From Microbulbifer hydrolyticus (GTDB taxonomy: Bacteria; Pseudomonadota; Gammaproteobacteria; Pseudomonadales; Cellvibrionaceae): DNA of 64,000 bases. Of the stretch, positions 48,344 through 56,124 are shown one piece after another (the first letter of the stretch is position 1; each line of letters starts with the position of its first letter). Under the pieces are notes generated by a model, which made no database searches, had not been told where the DNA came from, and saw only the letters and a list, made by a program, of their open reading frames with translations. A program made the position numbers and the translations under genes. The stretch covers positions 2,307,501-2,371,500 of the forward strand of contig NZ_CP047491.1 of assembly GCF_009931115.1 (NCBI RefSeq). Reading direction: 5' to 3'.

Positions 48344-49093
48344 TCAGCGGTAGAAGTACTCCAGATTCAGCCGCTGGGGATCGCCGGAACGGTCCAGCAG
48401 GTTCGTGACACCGACAAACCGCATCAGCTTCGGTTCGGCCTGGCCTTGGTCAGCGCTTTCCGCGTACTCGAGATATATGTCACCGCCAGCGATCCAACGC
48501 AGGATCGCCTGTGCCAGGTCCACGCGAATACACAGGTCAGCCTCAGGGTTCTGGCAAGGCGTGGCCGCCGCTCTCAACCCGATTGTCCTGCCGTGAACCG
48601 GCGACGCAAACTGGAACTGCAGTTCTTCGCCAGCCTTCAAAACTGACCAGTGCCGGCGCACCAGTGCATCGAACCCGGCATCGATCACATCGAGCTGACC
48701 GTCGGAAAAAACCTTGTCGCGATACTCGGCGTTGCGATTCGCCCGATAACGAAGCCGCCAGCCATCCGCAACCCGGGTGGCTTCACGAACCTCGCCACTA
48801 CGGAAATCTTCCTGGGAAATCTGCGGGCGCGTGTCCTGTAGCAGGCCCGAACGGCCAGCGTCCCCGGTTATGTGTTTTTCTGCAATTTTATTGGCTTGAG
48901 GTTGACCTGGTGTGTAATACACAACCCGCACCTCCCCGGCCGCTCGTGGCAGAAAATACTCGCAGTAGCGAACATCAGGCTCTTCAACACCACTCGCCCG
49001 CCCGACCACTGTAGCCGCACTCTCCACAGTATCGGGAGCATTGCACCCGTCCACCGCCAGTGAAGCCGCCAACACCAATTCGATCATAGACAC
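48344..49093 (-). CDS. Exported protein of unknown function, last gene of the sigma/ChrR-linked operon (249 aa)
   Basis: The first 13 residues (MSMIELVLAASLA) are a short hydrophobic start that could be a signal, and the next ones (VDGCNAPDTVESAAT) begin the mature protein. Contains four Cys (CNAP, VRYCEYF, TPCQNP, DLCIRV) that may form disulfides. The C-half is Asp/Arg-rich with WIAGGDIYLEYAESAD. I know no family for it. It lies 32 bp after DUF2878 on the same strand, so it is probably part of the operon that begins at 54538. Confidence 0.6.
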   Translation of the reverse strand: MSMIELVLAASLAVDGCNAPDTVESAATVVGRASGVEEPDVRYCEYFLPRAAGEVRVVYYTPGQPQANKIAEKHITGDAGRSGLLQDTRPQISQEDFRSGEVREATRVADGWRLRYRANRNAEYRDKVFSDGQLDVIDAGFDALVRRHWSVLKAGEELQFQFASPVHGRTIGLRAAATPCQNPEADLCIRVDLAQAILRWIAGGDIYLEYAESADQGQAEPKLMRFVGVTNLLDRSGDPQRLNLEYFYR

Positions 49094-49125
49094 CTCCTGT
49101 GTACACCGTCAGCCCATGACAGGCC

Positions 49126-49680
49126 TTACAGGCGAAACAGCCGCATTCGGGCGCAAACTAACAGTAGTGGCAAGAATGCACTCCACAGAACTGCGAGCAA
49201 CAGCACGGTTTGAAGAACCGGCTCTGCGAACACCACAGAGCCATTGATCTTGGCCCCAATCCAGTAGCTGAACGGGCCAGCGACGCCCCCGACTACCGCG
49301 GCAATCGCCAGGTTCCGATGCAGGAAGGCGAACGCAAAACGCAGCGCGAGTGCAAAATTCATCCACAAAAAAAGTAACCAGGACGGCAGCAGGAAAAACT
49401 CGTGGCTAGCGGTGAATACGCCCACCCGAAAAAGAGCGGCATCCATCCAGCACCCGAACAGGGTGACCAGTGCCACCCAGCGCAACGTCCTTACAGTCCA
49501 CTCAGTACTGAAGGGATTTCCGTTAAACAGCCACACATGAAGTGCAATATTTAGCGCGGTCACCCCTGCGAGCAGAGTTGCCCCCGGCGCCAGAACACAA
49601 ATCAGCCAGACCACTTCGAACAGAAGGCCACTGATCAGTAATTTCCCGATACCCAGGGACTGAACTTGTGAGAGTGCCAC
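49126..49680 (-). CDS. DUF2878 membrane protein
   Basis: Five hydrophobic segments in 184 residues, including GIGKLLISGLLFEVVWLICVLAPGATLL at the N-terminus and a conserved FLLPSWLLFLWMNFALALRFAFAFL. DUF2878 genes are typical companions of the cfa/DUF1365/amine-oxidase cluster. I take GTG 49680 as start, giving the usual length; the frame continues upstream into cfa, but the first part there is not of this family. Starts 14 bases after the cfa stop, so it is translationally linked. Confidence 0.8.
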   Translation of the reverse strand: MALSQVQSLGIGKLLISGLLFEVVWLICVLAPGATLLAGVTALNIALHVWLFNGNPFSTEWTVRTLRWVALVTLFGCWMDAALFRVGVFTASHEFFLLPSWLLFLWMNFALALRFAFAFLHRNLAIAAVVGGVAGPFSYWIGAKINGSVVFAEPVLQTVLLLAVLWSAFLPLLLVCARMRLFRL

Positions 49681-49694
49681 TGCTACCCGCCCAC

Positions 49695-51101
49695 TCAGTG
49701 AAGGTGCGGCAGCGTATTGCAACGCGGCTTGGCAAACGTAAATTGCGCAGTACTGATGACACGCTCCAGAAAGCCGCCTTCGCAGTAGCAAAAATAGAAA
49801 TCCCACATATTGATAAAGCGCTGGTCAAAGCCCTGGGCACGCACTTCATCGATACGCTCGAAAAAGGCCTTTCTCCACGATCGCAGTGTCATCGCATAGT
49901 CAAAGGTAATGTCGTCCAGTCCCACGATCTGCATGTCAGTGTGACAGGCAATATTGTCAGCAACGACCTGGTTGGAAGGGAGACATCCACCGGGGAAAAT
50001 GTAACGCTGAATAAAATCCACACTATTTTTGTACTGCTCAAAGCGCTGATCCTGGATGGTAATGGCCTGCATCACCATCAGGCCATCCGGCTTTAACAGT
50101 CCACTGCAGCGGGAGAAAAATTCCCGGTAGTACTTGTATCCAACCGCCTCGACCATCTCGATGGAAACAATCTTGTCGTACTGGCCTTCCAGCTCACGAT
50201 AGTCTTTCAGCAGCAAGGTAACTCTGTCTTCCAGGCCTTCACGGGCCACCCATGCCTTTGCGTATTCGTATTGCTGCCTGGAGATGGTGGTTGTGGTTAC
50301 CCGGCACCCGGTTTTCTTTGCCGCGTAAATGGCCATGCCTCCCCAACCGGTGCCAATCTCAAGCAGGTGATCGCTCTCCTTCAATTGCAGCTTTCGACAA
50401 ATGCGAGCAAGCTTGAACTCCGATGCTTCCGCGAGGCTCGCATCTTTTGCGGGAAAGACGGCCGATGAGTACAGCATGGTCGGATCAAGGAACAGTCCAA
50501 AGAAATCGTTTCCGAGATCATAATGCGCGGAAATATTTCGACGTGAGCCCTTCAATGAATTGCCGTTCAACCGGTGCAGCCCTTTGAGAACCAGCTTATT
50601 CACAAAGTTCCACTTGGAGTCGAGACTGTTCAGCAACGCCATATTGGCGACCATAATACGGATAACCTGGACCAGATCCGGCGAGTACCAGGCGCCATCC
50701 ATGTATGCCTCTCCGGACCCAATTGAGCCATTGAGCAGTACCTGGGTATAGAGCGAAGGATCCGAAACGTGGATATGCGCCTCCAGCTCAGAGGAACCCT
50801 CCGGTTCGCCAAACACAAAAACCTCGGGCGCATCGTTCTGGCTGTGCTGCTGATCGGCACGCGGAGAATAGTGCTCATAGACAAATAATGTGCCCATGCT
50901 CAGGTCTTTCAGCTTGTCCAAAACCAGTGTTCTGGCCAGGCGCTCAAACCAGGGCAAGGGTCTCTGGTAGTCCGCATCGCCAGTAGCCGGGACGGCCGCG
51001 GTGTCAAAGCTGCCGTCGGCGCCGCCCACAATGTTTTTATCGTTTGGACTCGACAGAAATTCCCGTCCAGAAACTGGAGCTGTGTTGTATCCAGATTTCA
51101 T
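49695..51101 (-). CDS. cfa: Cyclopropane-fatty-acyl-phospholipid synthase family methyltransferase
   Basis: Modifies unsaturated acyl chains of membrane phospholipids using SAM. Start ATG 51101 has GGAG 10 bases upstream; a longer frame starts at 51122. Signatures: the N-terminal domain near DPSLYTQVLLNGSIGSGEAYMDGAWYSPDL, then RRNISAHYDLGNDFFGLFLDPTMLYSSAVF, SAM motif HLLEIGTGWGGMAIYAAKKTGC, IVSIEMVEAVGYKYYREFF and the C-terminal FDQRFINMWDFYFCYCEGGFLERVI. This is the form found next to DUF1365 and FAD amine-oxidase genes, which is regulated by ECF sigma/ChrR systems in other bacteria. Confidence 0.93.
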   Translation of the reverse strand: MKSGYNTAPVSGREFLSSPNDKNIVGGADGSFDTAAVPATGDADYQRPLPWFERLARTLVLDKLKDLSMGTLFVYEHYSPRADQQHSQNDAPEVFVFGEPEGSSELEAHIHVSDPSLYTQVLLNGSIGSGEAYMDGAWYSPDLVQVIRIMVANMALLNSLDSKWNFVNKLVLKGLHRLNGNSLKGSRRNISAHYDLGNDFFGLFLDPTMLYSSAVFPAKDASLAEASEFKLARICRKLQLKESDHLLEIGTGWGGMAIYAAKKTGCRVTTTTISRQQYEYAKAWVAREGLEDRVTLLLKDYRELEGQYDKIVSIEMVEAVGYKYYREFFSRCSGLLKPDGLMVMQAITIQDQRFEQYKNSVDFIQRYIFPGGCLPSNQVVADNIACHTDMQIVGLDDITFDYAMTLRSWRKAFFERIDEVRAQGFDQRFINMWDFYFCYCEGGFLERVISTAQFTFAKPRCNTLPHLH

Positions 51102-51192
51102 ATCAATTTTTCTCCGGCTCAAAATTGCTTCTCAATCACGTCACATCAGGGCACATCACACCTTAACCCCCGTGCTAGCGGGCACCCTGGTA

Positions 51193-51951
51193 TCAAGGGT
51201 TGCGTTCCCTCCCCGGATGGGAATGAATTGGCACACGCTTTAATAGCAGTTTCAGGGCCTGCCAGTAAATTGAGATGATGATTTTTACGGTGTGCAATGG
51301 GAACTGGATCAGTTTCATTCGCAGGGCGGCGGGACTAATTTCTTCACGTTTCAGGTTCATACTGGCATCGAACACCCGTTCACCGTCTTCAATGGAACGG
51401 ATACTCACAGACAGCGCTTTATCGGGCAGCGTGCTTTTCCAAAGATATCGCTGCCCCAGTGGCATAAATGGTGAAACGTGCAGGGATTTGGCAAATTCAG
51501 CCCGCTGCACCGGCCCCTGCCCCTGTGAAGCCATATCCAACACATACCCATGTCGCTCGTTCCACGGCGTGTTGTGCACGTCCACGAGCAAAAACTCAAC
51601 ATTTTCCCCGGTCTTGTCAAAGCAGTAATAGATGCTGATGGGGTTCATGTTGTAGCCGAAATAGCGCCAGTTCGCGAGCAGCGCGATAGGCCCGGCGGGA
51701 CGCACCCCGGTTTCCTCGGCTACGCGGTCGCGCACCGCCCGATCCAGGGGAACAGCGGGGTCACCGTAGAAATCCTCCCGGCAAAAACTGGCCGGCGCCC
51801 CTCGCCTGCCCGACCACCAGCGCGATTGGGCAAAGATTTGCGGAAGCTCATCGAGAAATGCATAGACCATAAACCCCCGATAGCGGAAGCCGTGTTCACG
51901 GGGCTTCAAACGCCGGTGCTGGATCCAGCCGGAGTAAAGGCCACTGCGCAT
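51193..51951 (-). CDS. DUF1365 family protein
   Basis: Start ATG 51951, overlapping the amine-oxidase stop (TAATG). 252 residues. Family features: SGWIQHRRLKPREHGFRYRGFMVYAFLDEL at the N-terminus, the LLANWRYFGYNMNPISIYYCFD segment, LLVDVHNTPWNERHGYVLD and FAKSLHVSPFMPLGQRYLWK. Cytosolic or membrane-peripheral; function unknown but always close to cfa and FAD-amine-oxidase genes, pointing to membrane-lipid or carotenoid-linked chemistry. Gene order and overlap indicate one operon with its neighbours. Confidence 0.92.
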   Translation of the reverse strand: MRSGLYSGWIQHRRLKPREHGFRYRGFMVYAFLDELPQIFAQSRWWSGRRGAPASFCREDFYGDPAVPLDRAVRDRVAEETGVRPAGPIALLANWRYFGYNMNPISIYYCFDKTGENVEFLLVDVHNTPWNERHGYVLDMASQGQGPVQRAEFAKSLHVSPFMPLGQRYLWKSTLPDKALSVSIRSIEDGERVFDASMNLKREEISPAALRMKLIQFPLHTVKIIISIYWQALKLLLKRVPIHSHPGRERNP

Positions 51952-53231
51952 TAGAAGTCGACCCCCAAGCCCTTCGCAACCCGAAGCGCACTTGTCACAC
52001 CATCTTCGTGGAAACCGTTGGCCCAGTAGGCGCCACAAAACCAGCTCCGGTTGACGCCATTGATCTCCGACCAGCGAGACTGGGCGTGATTGCCATCAAC
52101 CGAAAACTGAGGATGCGAGTACTCGAAACGCCCAAGCACCTGCGCCGGATCGATCGCATCATCCGCATTGAGTGTCACGCAGTAGGTTTTTTTTGCATCC
52201 AGCCGCTGAAGAATATTCATATTGTAAGTGAGGATAGGCAGGCGATCGTGGTCTGCCTGAAGCCGGTAGTTCCAGCTCGCCCAGGCGCTTCGCCTGCGGG
52301 GCAAGAGACTGATATCGGTGTGCAGGACCACGGAATTCTTTTCATAGGGGATATTTCCGAGCACATCTTGCTCCTCAGGGCTGGCATCGGACAGCAGAGA
52401 CAACGCCTGGTCTGAATGGCAGGCAAATATCACCTGGTCGAACTCTCTCTGCTGAACAGTCCCGGATTGATCACGGTACTGCAGGGTAACACCGTGCGCA
52501 TGCCGCACCACCTTTTGCACCGGGCAGGACAAATGAATCCGATCCGCAAAGGCGCGCGCCAGTGGCGCGATATAGCTTCGTGAGCCGCCCTGAATTACCC
52601 GCCACTGGGGGCGATTGAAAATATTGAGCAGTCCATGGTTGTAAAAAAAACGGATGAAAAAATCCACCGAAAAGTCGAGCATTCTGGACATACTCGCGGA
52701 CCAGATGGCCGAGCCCATTGGGATAAGATAGCGCGAGGAGAACTCCGCTGAATAGCCATTATTGTCGAGATACGCGCCCAAGGTCATTGAGGGCCCCAGA
52801 TCCCCCCGCCGCCAGTCATCCACGGCATCGCGGTTAAAGCGAACGATGTCCTTCAGCATACGCCAGTGGCCGCCATCGATCAGGTTGCGACGTTGGGCAA
52901 ACAGGGAATTAAGGTTATTGCCCGCGTATTCAAAATCCCGGGATCCCGAACCTTCCATTCCGGGCTTAGACACACTGAACCCCATATCAGTGGGTTGCGA
53001 CTCAACTCCGATTTTGTCCATCAGCTTGATGAAATTGGGATAGGTCCAGTCATTGAAAACAATAAATCCAGTATCAATTGGCAGTACTCGGCCATCCTCG
53101 TAAACATCGATGGTCGCGGTATGCCCCCCCAGGCGGTCATCGGCCTCGAACAGGGTAATTTCATACTTCTCGTGCAATTGATAGGCCGCGGTCAATCCCG
53201 AAATACCACTGCCAATGACGGCAATTTTCAT
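51951..53231 (-). CDS. FAD-dependent amine-oxidase-like protein (NAD(P)-binding, 426 aa)
   Basis: Start ATG 53231, preceded by AAGGAGAGCC; the frame extends 19 codons further. Dinucleotide motif MKIAVIGSGISGLTAAYQLHEKYEITLFEADDRLGGHT, then DTGFIVFNDWTYPNFIKLMDKIGVESQPTDMGFSV. C-terminal VNRSWFCGAYWANGFHEDGVTSALRVAKGLGV has the second FAD-contacting GAYWANGFHEDG motif. It is the FAD oxidoreductase routinely linked with DUF1365 and cfa. Substrate unknown; the fold is shared with phytoene desaturase and amine oxidases. Overlaps the SDR stop by four bases. Confidence 0.93.
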   Translation of the reverse strand: MKIAVIGSGISGLTAAYQLHEKYEITLFEADDRLGGHTATIDVYEDGRVLPIDTGFIVFNDWTYPNFIKLMDKIGVESQPTDMGFSVSKPGMEGSGSRDFEYAGNNLNSLFAQRRNLIDGGHWRMLKDIVRFNRDAVDDWRRGDLGPSMTLGAYLDNNGYSAEFSSRYLIPMGSAIWSASMSRMLDFSVDFFIRFFYNHGLLNIFNRPQWRVIQGGSRSYIAPLARAFADRIHLSCPVQKVVRHAHGVTLQYRDQSGTVQQREFDQVIFACHSDQALSLLSDASPEEQDVLGNIPYEKNSVVLHTDISLLPRRRSAWASWNYRLQADHDRLPILTYNMNILQRLDAKKTYCVTLNADDAIDPAQVLGRFEYSHPQFSVDGNHAQSRWSEINGVNRSWFCGAYWANGFHEDGVTSALRVAKGLGVDF

Positions 53232-54019
53232 CCGGCTCTCCTTAACTTCTTGATTCTTGTCATACGAGGTGCGCACCATCCAAACCAAACCGGCCGCAAC
53301 ATGCCCAGCAGCCGCAGTGGCCAGCTAAGGCGACGGGGAAAGTCGATCACTGCTTTACGCGTCTTGAGGCCTGCAAGGATCCTGTCTGCCGCATCCTCCG
53401 GGGACATCAGAAATGGCATGTTGAAATCATTTTCCCGGGTCAGCGGCGTTTCGATAAATCCCGGCCGAATCAATACGGTCCGCAATGGTAGGCGGGAGGT
53501 ATCCGCACGCACCGCGTCCATGAAATACTGAAGCGCCGCTTTGGAGGCTCCATAGGCTTCCGCACGCGGAAACCCCACAACCGAAGACAGGCTCCCTACT
53601 GCGGCAAACACCGGTTCACGAGCGTTGGCTAACAGTGGCAGCGCCTCACGCAGGGTATTCACCACCCCGAAAAAGTTCGCATCAAATACCCGGCGGTAGC
53701 TGTCGACATCGAGGGAAAGGTTATCGTCGTACTCGCACACGCCTGCGCAGGCAATCACCATATCCAGTTGATCGGTGATTTCACGCAGCGCCGCACCGGC
53801 ACTGGCCATGGATGCATCATCGCCCACATCACAACTGAGCACCCGAACCAACTTGGGTGCGGGCTTTTGTACCTCAAGCAGCGCATCGCGACTGCGGCCA
53901 CTCACGATCACAAAGTGGCCGTCAGCAACCAGGCTGCGCACCAGCGCGGCGCCAATGCCGGAGCCGGCCCCGGTCACCCAGATAGTTTTCTTGCGTGAAA
54001 GATCGTTACCGTCCTTCAT
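53228..54019 (-). CDS. Short-chain dehydrogenase/reductase (263 aa)
   Basis: NAD(P)-dependent SDR. Cofactor motif TGAGSGIGAALV near residue 17, VIVSGRSRDALLEVQ for nucleotide choice, the active-site region AVGSLSSVVGFPRAEAYGASKAALQYFMDAVRAD with Ser, Tyr and Lys (Y-x-x-x-K), and IRPGFIETPLT. It is the SDR that accompanies the amine oxidase in this cluster. The C-terminal 30 residues (WPLRLLGMLRPVWFGWCAP) may be a membrane anchor. Start ATG 54019; separated by 66 bp from the SnoaL-like gene upstream. Confidence 0.93.
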   Translation of the reverse strand: MKDGNDLSRKKTIWVTGAGSGIGAALVRSLVADGHFVIVSGRSRDALLEVQKPAPKLVRVLSCDVGDDASMASAGAALREITDQLDMVIACAGVCEYDDNLSLDVDSYRRVFDANFFGVVNTLREALPLLANAREPVFAAVGSLSSVVGFPRAEAYGASKAALQYFMDAVRADTSRLPLRTVLIRPGFIETPLTRENDFNMPFLMSPEDAADRILAGLKTRKAVIDFPRRLSWPLRLLGMLRPVWFGWCAPRMTRIKKLRRAG

Positions 54020-54085
54020 GGCCCCGACACCTCCTTTGGCTTTATCCTGACGACTGTCCGCACCCCGGCTGCCGCACGGGCAAGG

Positions 54086-54538
54086 CTACGCACCCGCATT
54101 CCCACCACTCGCTGCCATGCCGCGCTTTACATAACTCAGCACACTGCCCAGCAAGGGGATATGCTCGTATACCATGGCGCCGAGGTCATAAATGTCCTCG
54201 TGCTCCAGAACCCGATCCTTTTCCAGGTCGAGCTTCAACAGCGAGGCGCCTCGCATACTTAAAGGGGCCCCACCACTCAATCGGGGATGTCGGTAGTGCA
54301 TCGTCCACCAGAGGTTGAGCGCATTCCCGTCCACCAGTGTCTGGTCGAACTCGAAGCGGCACTCGCGCAGGTTCTGCGCCACCCCGGCGAAGTAGGCCTG
54401 CATATTTTCAAGCCCTTCGACTCGGTGCACCGGATCCGAGAAAATAACGTCTTCCGCGTAAACTTCGGCGATATAGGAAGGATCTGCCGCCAAAAAGTCT
54501 GAATACAGATGCTTTATGCGCTTCACAAGCGATGCCAT
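54086..54538 (-). CDS. SnoaL-like/NTF2-superfamily protein
   Basis: 150 residues, cone-shaped alpha+beta fold. Signature YSDFLAADPSYIAEVYAEDVIFSDPVHRVEGLENMQAYFAGVAQN is the polyketide-cyclase-like pocket start, and LRLDLEKDRVLEHEDIYDLGAMVYEHIPLLG follows. Members of this group are regular partners of the SDR/amine-oxidase/DUF1365/cfa set. First gene of the minus-strand operon, 54 bases downstream of the possible sigma-dependent promoter at 54592-54619. Confidence 0.85.
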   Translation of the reverse strand: MASLVKRIKHLYSDFLAADPSYIAEVYAEDVIFSDPVHRVEGLENMQAYFAGVAQNLRECRFEFDQTLVDGNALNLWWTMHYRHPRLSGGAPLSMRGASLLKLDLEKDRVLEHEDIYDLGAMVYEHIPLLGSVLSYVKRGMAASGGNAGA

Positions 54539-54591
54539 AGTGCCACTCCGGGCTTGGACATATAGTCACGATTACTGGATTGATGTCTTCA

Positions 54592-54619
54592 AATACGCCA
54601 TCACACCCGATTCAGATTA
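54592..54619 (-). promoter_or_regulatory. Possible ECF11-type promoter for the minus-strand operon (weak match)
   Basis: Minus strand: TAATCT, 16-nt spacer, CGTATT. It matches the TGATCC-N16-CGTAT pattern in four of six positions at -35 and fully at -10, with the same spacing, upstream of the SnoaL-like gene. If right, the sigma factor controls both its own gene pair and the lipid operon. Confidence 0.5.
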
Positions 54620-54699
54620 CTCGGATCCCACCTTATCTGTCCCTTCCCCACCCTGCGATGCGGAATATCAAGGAGGCCGCACAAAAATCAGGCAAATGA

Positions 54700-54727
54700 T
54701 GATCCAATCCCCTGGCGTGTGCGTATG
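54700..54727 (+). promoter_or_regulatory. ECF11 sigma-factor autoregulatory promoter
   Basis: TGATCC at 54700-54705, 16-nt spacer, CGTATG at 54722-54727. This matches the target promoter known for ECF11 (RpoE-ChrR) sigma factors: TGATCC, 16 or so bases, CGTA. It places the transcript start close to 54733, so ATG 54733 would have no leader and ATG 54793 is the better start of the sigma gene. Confidence 0.8.
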
Positions 54728-54792
54728 CAGCCATGGAAACCAGATATCGCATGCGGTTTGAAGACCAATGTACGTACAATGGCCCAAACGGA

Positions 54793-55404
54793 ATGAAAAA
54801 CGGATACAGCGAGTCAACTATCGTGCAGGCTTCTGAGAAAACCAGGGACGATGAATGGAGCAACCTCCTCGTGCGGGTTGGTCAGCATCGTGACCGGCGG
54901 GCATTCGAGCAGCTTTTCAGCCACTTTGCCCCGCTGGTAAAGGGGTTCCAGTTCAGCCGCGGCGGGCAAAGCTCCGCGCCCGAAGCCGCCGATGAGCTGG
55001 TACAGGAAGTCATGTTTCGTGTGTGGCGCAAAGCACCCAGCTTTAACCCGGACAAGGCCGCCGCCAGCACATGGATATTCACCATCATGCGCAACTGCCG
55101 CATTGATGCGATGCGCCGCCGGGGACGCCAGCCCGATACGGATGACAGCCTCAACGTGGAGGATATATGGGATGACAGCCATGACGATCAGCCGCTCGTA
55201 TACCTGCAGCAATCCCGCAGGCACGATGCTGTAAAGACCGGCCTGAAGGAACTGCCACCGGAACAGAGCCACGTGATTGAAAAGGCCTATATCGAAGGCA
55301 AATCACACAGTGAAATAGCGGAAGAACTTGGGCTGCCACTGGGAACGGTAAAATCCCGCGTGCGGCTCGCCCTCAAGAAACTTCAAAGCACAATTGTCAG
55401 GTAG
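54793..55404 (+). CDS. rpoE: ECF RNA polymerase sigma factor, ECF11/RpoE (ChrR-controlled) type
   Basis: About 203 residues from ATG 54793; a longer start at 54733 is inconsistent with the promoter. Region 2: QHRDRRAFEQLFSHFAPLVKGF, with EAADELVQEVMFRVWRKAPSFNPDKAAASTWIFTIMRNCRIDAMRRRGR (core binding and -10 recognition). Region 4: LKELPPEQSHVIEKAYIEGKSHSEIAEELGLPLGTVKSRVRLALKKLQ (-35 recognition helix). The DNA motif, the ChrR partner 6 bp downstream and the neighbouring lipid genes identify the ECF11 group. The name rpoE follows Rhodobacter and not E. coli RpoE. Confidence 0.9.
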   Translation: MKNGYSESTIVQASEKTRDDEWSNLLVRVGQHRDRRAFEQLFSHFAPLVKGFQFSRGGQSSAPEAADELVQEVMFRVWRKAPSFNPDKAAASTWIFTIMRNCRIDAMRRRGRQPDTDDSLNVEDIWDDSHDDQPLVYLQQSRRHDAVKTGLKELPPEQSHVIEKAYIEGKSHSEIAEELGLPLGTVKSRVRLALKKLQSTIVR

Positions 55405-55410
55405 GGAGCC

Positions 55411-56124
55411 ATGATCCACCACCATCCCGACAACAACATGATGCTGGAATATGCCAGCGGTAGCCTCAACTGGGCCCACAGCCTGGTGGTTTCAGCACAT
55501 GTGCAGCTCTGCCCGAAATGCGCAGCGCAAATGAAAGTACTCAACGGCGTTGGCGGCACGCTACTCGCTTCCAGCGCACCGGCCGCTTCCAGTGAAGACC
55601 ATCAGGCACAAGCCTTTGAGCAGTTGATGCGCCGTATCGACCAAGGTGTGCAGGATGAAACAGGCGATAGCGAGCCACCTCAAAAAGTGGCAACCGCCGC
55701 CAGTTATCAGAAAGTTCACAAGGATCCGATCTTCACCGCGGTGCCGCCAGTCGTACAAAAGTTGCTCGACAACAACCCGATCTTGCGCTGGCGTCGTTTA
55801 TCCCGGGGGCTGAAAGAGGCTCGGTTGAACACCAGCCAGGACCGGCATGAAGTCGCCTTCCACCGGATATCCCCGGGAAGCAAGGTGGCGGAGCATGACC
55901 ACCGCGGAACTGAGATCACTATGGTGCTCTACGGCAGTTTTTCCGACGCAGATGGTGTGTATTCACCCGGAGACTTCCTCGTGCGCGAGCCGGGTGAGGT
56001 TCACCGCCCGACCGCTACACAGGATCAGGAGTGTCTGTGTCTTTCCGTGGTTGAAGCGCCGGTGGCCCTTACCGGCTTCTGGGGGAAAGTGGTCAACCCT
56101 TTTCTGTCCATCAGACCTGGGTAA
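55411..56124 (+). CDS. chrR: ChrR-family zinc-binding anti-sigma factor
   Basis: Holds the ECF sigma factor inactive until stress. N-terminal ZAS domain with zinc ligands His5, His30, Cys34 and Cys37 (same spacing as Rhodobacter ChrR). The C-terminal cupin has EHDHRGTEITMVLYG with His162, His164 and Glu168, then His198 in GEVHRPT, and the CLC pair Cys208/Cys210 found in ChrR. All four ZAS and all four cupin metal positions are retained, so it should be a functional singlet-oxygen-type sensor. Start ATG 55411, six bases after the sigma gene stop: one operon. Confidence 0.93.
   Translation: MIHHHPDNNMMLEYASGSLNWAHSLVVSAHVQLCPKCAAQMKVLNGVGGTLLASSAPAASSEDHQAQAFEQLMRRIDQGVQDETGDSEPPQKVATAASYQKVHKDPIFTAVPPVVQKLLDNNPILRWRRLSRGLKEARLNTSQDRHEVAFHRISPGSKVAEHDHRGTEITMVLYGSFSDADGVYSPGDFLVREPGEVHRPTATQDQECLCLSVVEAPVALTGFWGKVVNPFLSIRPG

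Follow-up and report, generated by a model that had tools for sequence, protein, structure and literature searches.

A predicted ECF11 promoter within the ufaO coding sequence of a putative furan-fatty-acid operon in Microbulbifer hydrolyticus

A sigma factor/ChrR locus and the genes divergent from it were analyzed in a 64,000-nucleotide stretch of Microbulbifer hydrolyticus DNA (assembly GCF_009931115.1, contig NZ_CP047491.1, positions 2,307,501 to 2,371,500), referred to here as the window. The genome, G000, is a single contig of 4.21 Mb in which the window is G000:C1:2307501-2371500. The sigma gene and then chrR lie on the plus strand, and seven genes head away from them on the minus strand. 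The locus is quite likely an ECF11 singlet-oxygen unit in which three local promoters, the third inside ufaO, drive the sigma operon and a furan-fatty-acid operon. It is also probable that the furan-fatty-acid operon depends so heavily on a second ECF11 promoter ahead of ufaM that one has evolved within the codons of ufaO, at two alternative positions that are repeatedly gained or lost and never coexist, with a further site in the DUF2878 gene of seven Microbulbifer genomes. The regulon and the pathway are already known. What seems new is the promoter predicted upstream of ufaM, along with its two alternative positions and the selection acting at its synonymous sites.

The third promoter was found by a genome scan as an exact TGATCC-N16-CGTA match (N16, a 16-nucleotide spacer) at 51311-51286 on the minus strand. 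It lies in the 3’ part of ufaO and points into ufaM, approximately 180 nucleotides onward. A preliminary description of this DNA had given the two divergent promoters correctly but overlooked this third one (51311-51284). The genus comparison covered 48 genomes, and the locus was fetched from the 40 of them, besides G000, that have a clear sigma orthologue. Orthologues score at least 243 bits, and no other match in any genome exceeds 58.6 bits. Scored as at least 5/6 of the -35, N16, and CGTA, the internal site is present in 34 of the 40 genus relatives.

The codons beneath the site were examined in an alignment of 41 ufaO genes of the genus, which has 132 columns testable for synonymous bias. 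The valine codon of the -10 is GTA in all 36 genes with valine there, against a background of 17-22%, and its column ranks first of the 132 with 2.56 bits, the next having 1.25. The -35 isoleucine codon is ATC in 36 of 37 genes (rank 7), while the -10 threonine codon is ACC in 36/40 (rank 13) and the lysine codon AAA in 34/40 (rank 18). Spacer proline and leucine codons occur in several spellings. Since ranks 2 to 6 belong to ufaO columns outside the site, mostly serine, the valine column bears most of the weight.

Outside the genus, 60 loci of the family were searched from the ufaO start to ufaM (56,040 bases). A spacer of 16 gives 27 matches, and spacers of 10-15 and 17-22 give 0-1 match each. 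A codon alignment of 166 ufaO genes was then used for positional analysis. Position A holds a site in 44 genes (34 genus, 10 family). Position B is approximately 220-280 nucleotides upstream of A and in another phase, with 17 genes at one column and 2 nearby. Four ufaO sites lie off both positions, and A and B do not occur together in any of the 166 genes. In genus plus family, the valine at position A is GTA in 50 of 51 genes, whereas 15 other well-filled valine columns each use all four codons. For position B, 23 genes were picked by protein motif alone; the cysteine is TGT in 21 of them (background 44%) and the arginine is CGT in 19 (background 18%).

A null model was built by shuffling synonymous codons within each gene, 300 times. 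Of 100 ufaO genes from the genus and family, 62 have a site, where the shuffles average 8.2 and reach 17 at most, and other spacers give 0-1. These codon comparisons show selection on the nucleotides of the internal site over and above that on the protein. A plain seven-gene operon with a single promoter was rejected on the strength of this selection, seen in both the valine bias and the codon shuffles.

Spacer-16 sites were also counted gene by gene. There are 61 in ufaO (100 loci), 4 in ufaD (100), none in ufaM (100), and 1 in the short-chain dehydrogenase (SDR) gene (97). In the DUF2878 gene, 82 loci yield 7 sites, which come from seven Microbulbifer genomes, share a single codon position, and precede the seventh gene. 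This site reads TGATC(C/G)-N16-CGTA and is near the 3’ end (L087, L088, L089, L105, L106, L108, and L109). The DUF2878 gene of the window is without it. A named set of 80 loci, which overlaps the first sets in part (Microbulbifer elongatus is G011 and M. variabilis is G044), has 5 spacer-16 sites in ufaO versus 0-1 for other spacers. Microbulbifer elongatus has its site at A, and Marinomonas phaeophyticola, Marinomonas gallaica, Marinomonas profundimaris, and one gammaproteobacterial metagenome-assembled genome have theirs at B. On a quick tree of 141 loci, which has long branches, there are 6 label changes for A and 7 for B. Because 5 and 6 of these, respectively, are forced by well-supported branches, the ufaO sites were gained or lost repeatedly.

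The two divergent promoters lie between the sigma gene and the operon. The sigma-side promoter has TGATCC at 54700-54705 and, after N16, CGTATG at 54722-54727 (plus strand). The operon-side promoter has TAATCT at 54619-54614 and, again after N16, CGTATT at 54597-54592 (minus strand). Thresholds were at least 5/6 of the -35 on the sigma side and at least 4/6 on the operon side, both with N16 and CGTA. With a spacer of 16, the sigma-side site is found in 31 of the 40 relatives and the operon-side site in all 40; 9 loci lack a sigma-side site at this threshold. Spacers of 12-15 and 17-21 give 0-1 site on the sigma side and 0-3 on the operon side. Because only a spacer of 16 gives sites across the relatives, the divergent promoters are beyond chance. 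Three loci have the sigma gene 2.6-2.7 kb from the operon, yet both promoters are retained. The preliminary description had reported the sigma-side motif, which stands, and a weaker reverse copy facing the operon. That copy is present, but its -35 is better described as a clade variant than as weak, because TAATCT occurs in the nearest kin of the window (5 of the 40 relatives; 18 have a perfect TGATCC). The katG promoter of Pseudomonas syringae also has TAATCT as its -35, and it is reported to respond to singlet oxygen by induction and to rise approximately 41-fold on ECF11 sigma overexpression (PMC5507510).

The sigma orthologue and DUF1365 co-occur across the 48 genomes: 41 have both, 6 have neither, and 1, an 80%-complete genome, has DUF1365 alone. 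The six genomes with neither are G015, G022, G023, G035, G041, and G042. The regulon, the promoters, and the link to photo-oxidative stress that had been proposed from the window alone are supported by homology, promoter conservation, and this co-occurrence.

The sigma factor matches Pfam regions 2 and 4. Its best solved relative is the Rhodobacter sphaeroides-type RpoE 2q1z_A (E 5.8e-40; runner-up 6.5e-13), from the R. sphaeroides RpoE-ChrR pair (PMC6852236). The ChrR protein scores 172.4 bits against TIGR02451, above the cut-off of 124.5, and is below the narrower equivalog NF051881 (110.9 versus 300 bits). Aligned to 2z2s, it keeps all eight of the metal and cupin ligands listed in PMC6852236 (H5, H30, C34, C37; H162, H164, E168, H198), as the preliminary description had stated. 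These comparisons confirm the pair as an ECF11 (RpoE/ChrR) system. For the sigma start, 30 loci were taken, of which 25 were scored, window included, and 5 were not. The codon aligned to 54823 is ATG, GTG, or TTG in 24 of the 25, and the 25th looks mis-registered. Leader length varies across relatives by non-multiples of three. A start at ATG 54733 was rejected because it coincides with the expected transcription start and because the aligned codons and leader lengths favor GTG 54823, which is most likely the true start.

The operon combines a DUF1365 protein, a flavin adenine dinucleotide (FAD) oxidoreductase, and a CMAS-fold protein, in an order retained in relatives. DUF1365 is the UfaO family; the oxidoreductase is presumably UfaD-like, a desaturase by homology of context, and the CMAS protein UfaM-like. 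The core is thus very probably ufaD-ufaO-ufaM, the published furan-fatty-acid pathway (PMC7380195, PMC12089945). In R. sphaeroides these three genes are reported to be enough for production of the 9M5 furan fatty acid (PMC7380195), and ufaM lies distant from ufaD and ufaO (PMC12089945). In Halomonas, ufaD, ufaO, and ufaM are consecutive, and ufaM expressed in Escherichia coli is reported to give 11-methyl-octadec-12-enoate (PMC12089945). The seven-gene operon of the preliminary description, with its DUF1365, FAD, SDR, SnoaL-like, and DUF2878 members, is borne out by Pfam. Three of its other statements need revision: the methyltransferase had been labeled cfa, a role in membrane repair had been proposed, and the product had been called not known. 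A product can be predicted, and the repair role is not supported.

The methyltransferase (49695-51101) was considered as a cyclopropane synthase, and with it the idea that the operon makes cyclopropane rather than furan fatty acids. It has the CMAS fold and matches the solved cyclopropane synthase 6bqc (E 1e-57), and Halomonas ufaM in E. coli gave cyclic fatty acids as well (PMC12089945). Against the Cfa model PRK11705, however, it scores 275.6 bits where the curated cut-off is 400, and the genome has a canonical Cfa elsewhere at 579 bits. All 121 operon methyltransferases from outside the genus are closer to that of the window than to the genome’s own Cfa. The gene also directly follows ufaO, as it does in 71 of the 80 named loci, and ufaD precedes ufaO in 76. 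The enzyme appears distinct from Cfa and UfaM-like by context and by these comparisons, the cyclopropane synthase label was rejected, and a cyclopropane product is very unlikely. More room is left, though it remains doubtful, for a pathway that ends in a further modified lipid, with the SDR, SnoaL-like, DUF2878, and seventh proteins acting on the furan or its oxidation products. The SnoaL and SDR genes accompany the operon at every one of the 40 genus loci, but in R. sphaeroides each of RSP1087-1089 is reported as dispensable for making the 9M5 furan fatty acid (PMC7380195), and DUF2878 and the seventh gene are themselves inconstant within the genus.

As for the internal ufaO match, it is unlikely to be a non-promoter whose letters are kept by the peptide LIxYPxxTVK, codon bias, or RNA structure. 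That peptide is well conserved in DUF1365, and other ufaO columns are biased too, for example several serine columns and N100 (AAC in 40/40). The valine column nevertheless stands far above all others while the spacer codons vary, and beyond the family the same valine is spelled otherwise: GTA is used in 14 of the 15 family genes outside the genus, but the class-level and phylum-level counts are only 1 of 6 and 0 of 1. The spacer is exactly 16 at two codon positions and phases, and the 62 of 100 genes with a site far exceed the 8.2 of the synonymous shuffles. Several observations weigh against the promoter reading and its place in a wider regulon. The site is missing from 6 of the 40 genus relatives (L094 and L100-L104), and in the family an N16 site is absent from ufaO in 32 of 60 genes. 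Among the 66 ufaO genes from the order, class, and phylum there are 5 sites against a shuffle mean of 1.4; since this is within the shuffle range (maximum 6), there is no clear signal in ufaO beyond the family. The relatives compared are not independent of one another. The genome has two photolyase genes. For one, the 1.5 kb preceding its domain match contains no N16 match, and for the other (L169) there is only TCATCC-N16-CGTAGA, 1151 nucleotides upstream, so photolyase genes are at most candidate members of the usual ECF11 regulon here.

The features of the locus are listed in Table 1.

Table 1. Features of the ECF11 locus, in window coordinates
Feature	Position	Strand	Basis
sigma-chrR operon promoter, ECF11, TGATCC-N16-CGTATG	54700..54727	+	Motif match; spacer-16 site in 31/40 relatives
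Lipid operon promoter, ECF11, TAATCT-N16-CGTATT	54592..54619	-	Motif match; spacer-16 site in 40/40 relatives
Third ECF11 promoter (predicted), inside ufaO codons, TGATCC-N16-CGTAAA, directed into ufaM	51284..51311	-	
ECF11 sigma factor	54823..55404	+	Start probably at the GTG; open frame extends up to ATG 54733
ChrR zinc anti-sigma factor with cupin domain	55411..56124	+	Pfam/NCBIfam; ligand alignment
SnoaL_2-domain protein, accessory	54086..54538	-	Pfam
Short-chain dehydrogenase (adh_short), accessory	53228..54019	-	Pfam
UfaD-like FAD oxidoreductase (Amino_oxidase)	51951..53231	-	Pfam; place immediately ahead of DUF1365, matching published ufaD-ufaO order
UfaO-like DUF1365 protein, holds embedded promoter	51193..51948	-	PF07103, 239.8 bits
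UfaM-like S-adenosylmethionine fatty-acyl methyltransferase (CMAS)	49695..51101	-	Pfam; Cfa comparisons
DUF2878 protein, accessory, start uncertain	49126..49731	-	Pfam
Seventh operon gene	48344..49093	-	Relatives at same place in genus and family

The order SnoaL-SDR-ufaD-ufaO-ufaM is identical in all 40 genus loci. DUF2878 was not detected in 4 of the 40 (L081, L083, L086, and L111), all of which keep ufaM, and the seventh gene is absent or partial in 9, one of these at a contig end. On these counts both are regarded as accessory. The product of the seventh gene (48344-49093) matched no Pfam or NCBIfam family. Of the 17 proteins listed for it, its own included, the named ones are all from Microbulbifer, and weaker relatives were found by tblastn at the same place in family loci. 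In L094, ufaM lies approximately 1.5 kb away, and a TGACCC-N16-CGTACT sequence is found 759 nucleotides ahead of it, outside ufaO.

The whole-genome scan of G000 gave 70 matches to TGATC-N17/18-CGTA. Of the 42 examined, 30 fall inside a reading frame of more than 150 amino acids on either strand. A reversed-pattern control gave 7 matches, and the ratio was not used because the reversed pattern contains CTAG. This tetranucleotide is often rare in bacterial genomes. Intergenic TGATCC-N16-CGTA sequences lie close upstream of genes for an outer-membrane-type protein, an ABC transporter ATPase, a signal-peptide protein, and an MHYT-like membrane protein (L062, L063, L066, and L069; names assigned by eye). 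An ECF11-type match is also found at position 1501 of L019, in the 3’ portion of a reading frame for a photolyase.

A DUF3833 gene unlinked to the locus (G000:C1:222480-222977; L125, L005) has a lipoprotein signal by eye. Of 25 genus loci, that of G000 among them, 24 have an N16 site at this gene when at least 4/6 is required and 14 when at least 5/6 is; spacers of 11-15 and 17-21 give none of 25 at the latter threshold. No DUF3833 match was found in 23 of the 48 genus genomes. In G033 (C57:4085-7693), DUF1365 and DUF3833 are approximately 2.4 kb apart, unlike in G000. The DUF3833 protein is the likely counterpart of R. sphaeroides RSP_1088, which we take to be a DUF3833 protein. RSP_1088 is listed in PMC5507510 as having a lipoprotein orthologue. 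Through its promoter, the DUF3833 gene appears to supply the lipoprotein gene of the ECF11 core regulon.

The closest known system is RpoE-ChrR of R. sphaeroides (RSP1091-1087 plus ufaM), which shares the sigma factor, the zinc/cupin anti-sigma factor, the promoter type, ufaD, ufaO, ufaM, and an SDR. The Microbulbifer locus differs in that ufaM belongs to the operon and is preceded by a predicted embedded promoter, in the separate location of the DUF3833 gene, and in having SnoaL, DUF2878, and the seventh gene as extras. Rhodopseudomonas palustris (RPA2571-2569) and Halomonas sp. YLGW01 (ufaD-ufaO-ufaM) also have the three furan-fatty-acid genes adjoining; the available text of the two reports describes an embedded promoter for neither, whereas one is predicted in the Microbulbifer locus (PMC7380195, PMC12089945). 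In the literature searched, no description of a promoter inside ufaO was found. The nearest comes from PMC7380195, whose table of strains and plasmids annotates the ufaO deletion of R. sphaeroides with “Potential promoter of RSP1089 is kept”.

Other gammaproteobacteria have related regulons. The PSPTO_1043 regulon of P. syringae has the same TGATCC-N16-CGTA consensus by chromatin immunoprecipitation sequencing, along with the katG -35 noted above. In that study, 54 of 87 peaks with the motif lie within coding regions, and the phrB promoter, inside the preceding gene PSPTO_1122, is functional (PMC5507510). Embedded ECF11 promoters are therefore already known in kind. The P. syringae regulon differs in its genes, and the text available from that report does not describe a synonymous-site test. 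Shewanella oneidensis RpoE2-ChrR and Vibrio cholerae ChrR represent further ECF11 pairs, with promoters reported as TGATCC...CGTA and TGATC-N18-CGTAT, respectively. A cfa-like gene is a predicted member of the Shewanella regulon, and in Vibrio blue light induces such a gene. The predicted Shewanella unit that contains cfa also lists a photolyase gene, while the Microbulbifer operon is without one (PMC4336711, PMC5241685).

A mechanism can be proposed from these likenesses. On singlet oxygen, ChrR would be lost and the sigma factor freed. The free sigma factor would start transcription at its own operon, at the head of the divergent lipid operon, and at the promoter near the end of ufaO, the last giving an extra transcript of ufaM and the genes after it. 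Acting on the chains of membrane phospholipids, the enzymes are predicted to proceed from methylation by UfaM through desaturation by UfaD to oxygen insertion by UfaO, giving a methylated furan fatty acid. Such a fatty acid would be destroyed by singlet oxygen. In R. sphaeroides it is tied to ChrR turnover, for which the furan-fatty-acid genes are reported as required on singlet oxygen (PMC6852236), and a similar feedback on ChrR may operate here. UfaM acts first in the pathway and its gene is the last of the three; the extra promoter probably raises or secures this enzyme.

These results place a known light-stress circuit in a marine lineage, allow its product to be predicted as a furan fatty acid, and correct the cyclopropane synthase label. 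The ufaO site is a comparatively clean example of a promoter in coding sequence, with fixed letters under the -35 and -10, a free spacer, and two alternative positions across the family. It allows one to ask how the demands of the protein code are balanced against the need for a promoter, and why ufaM would require a switch of its own. If true, the movement of a promoter within coding sequence with its function kept would be a rare and testable case of regulatory turnover inside genes.

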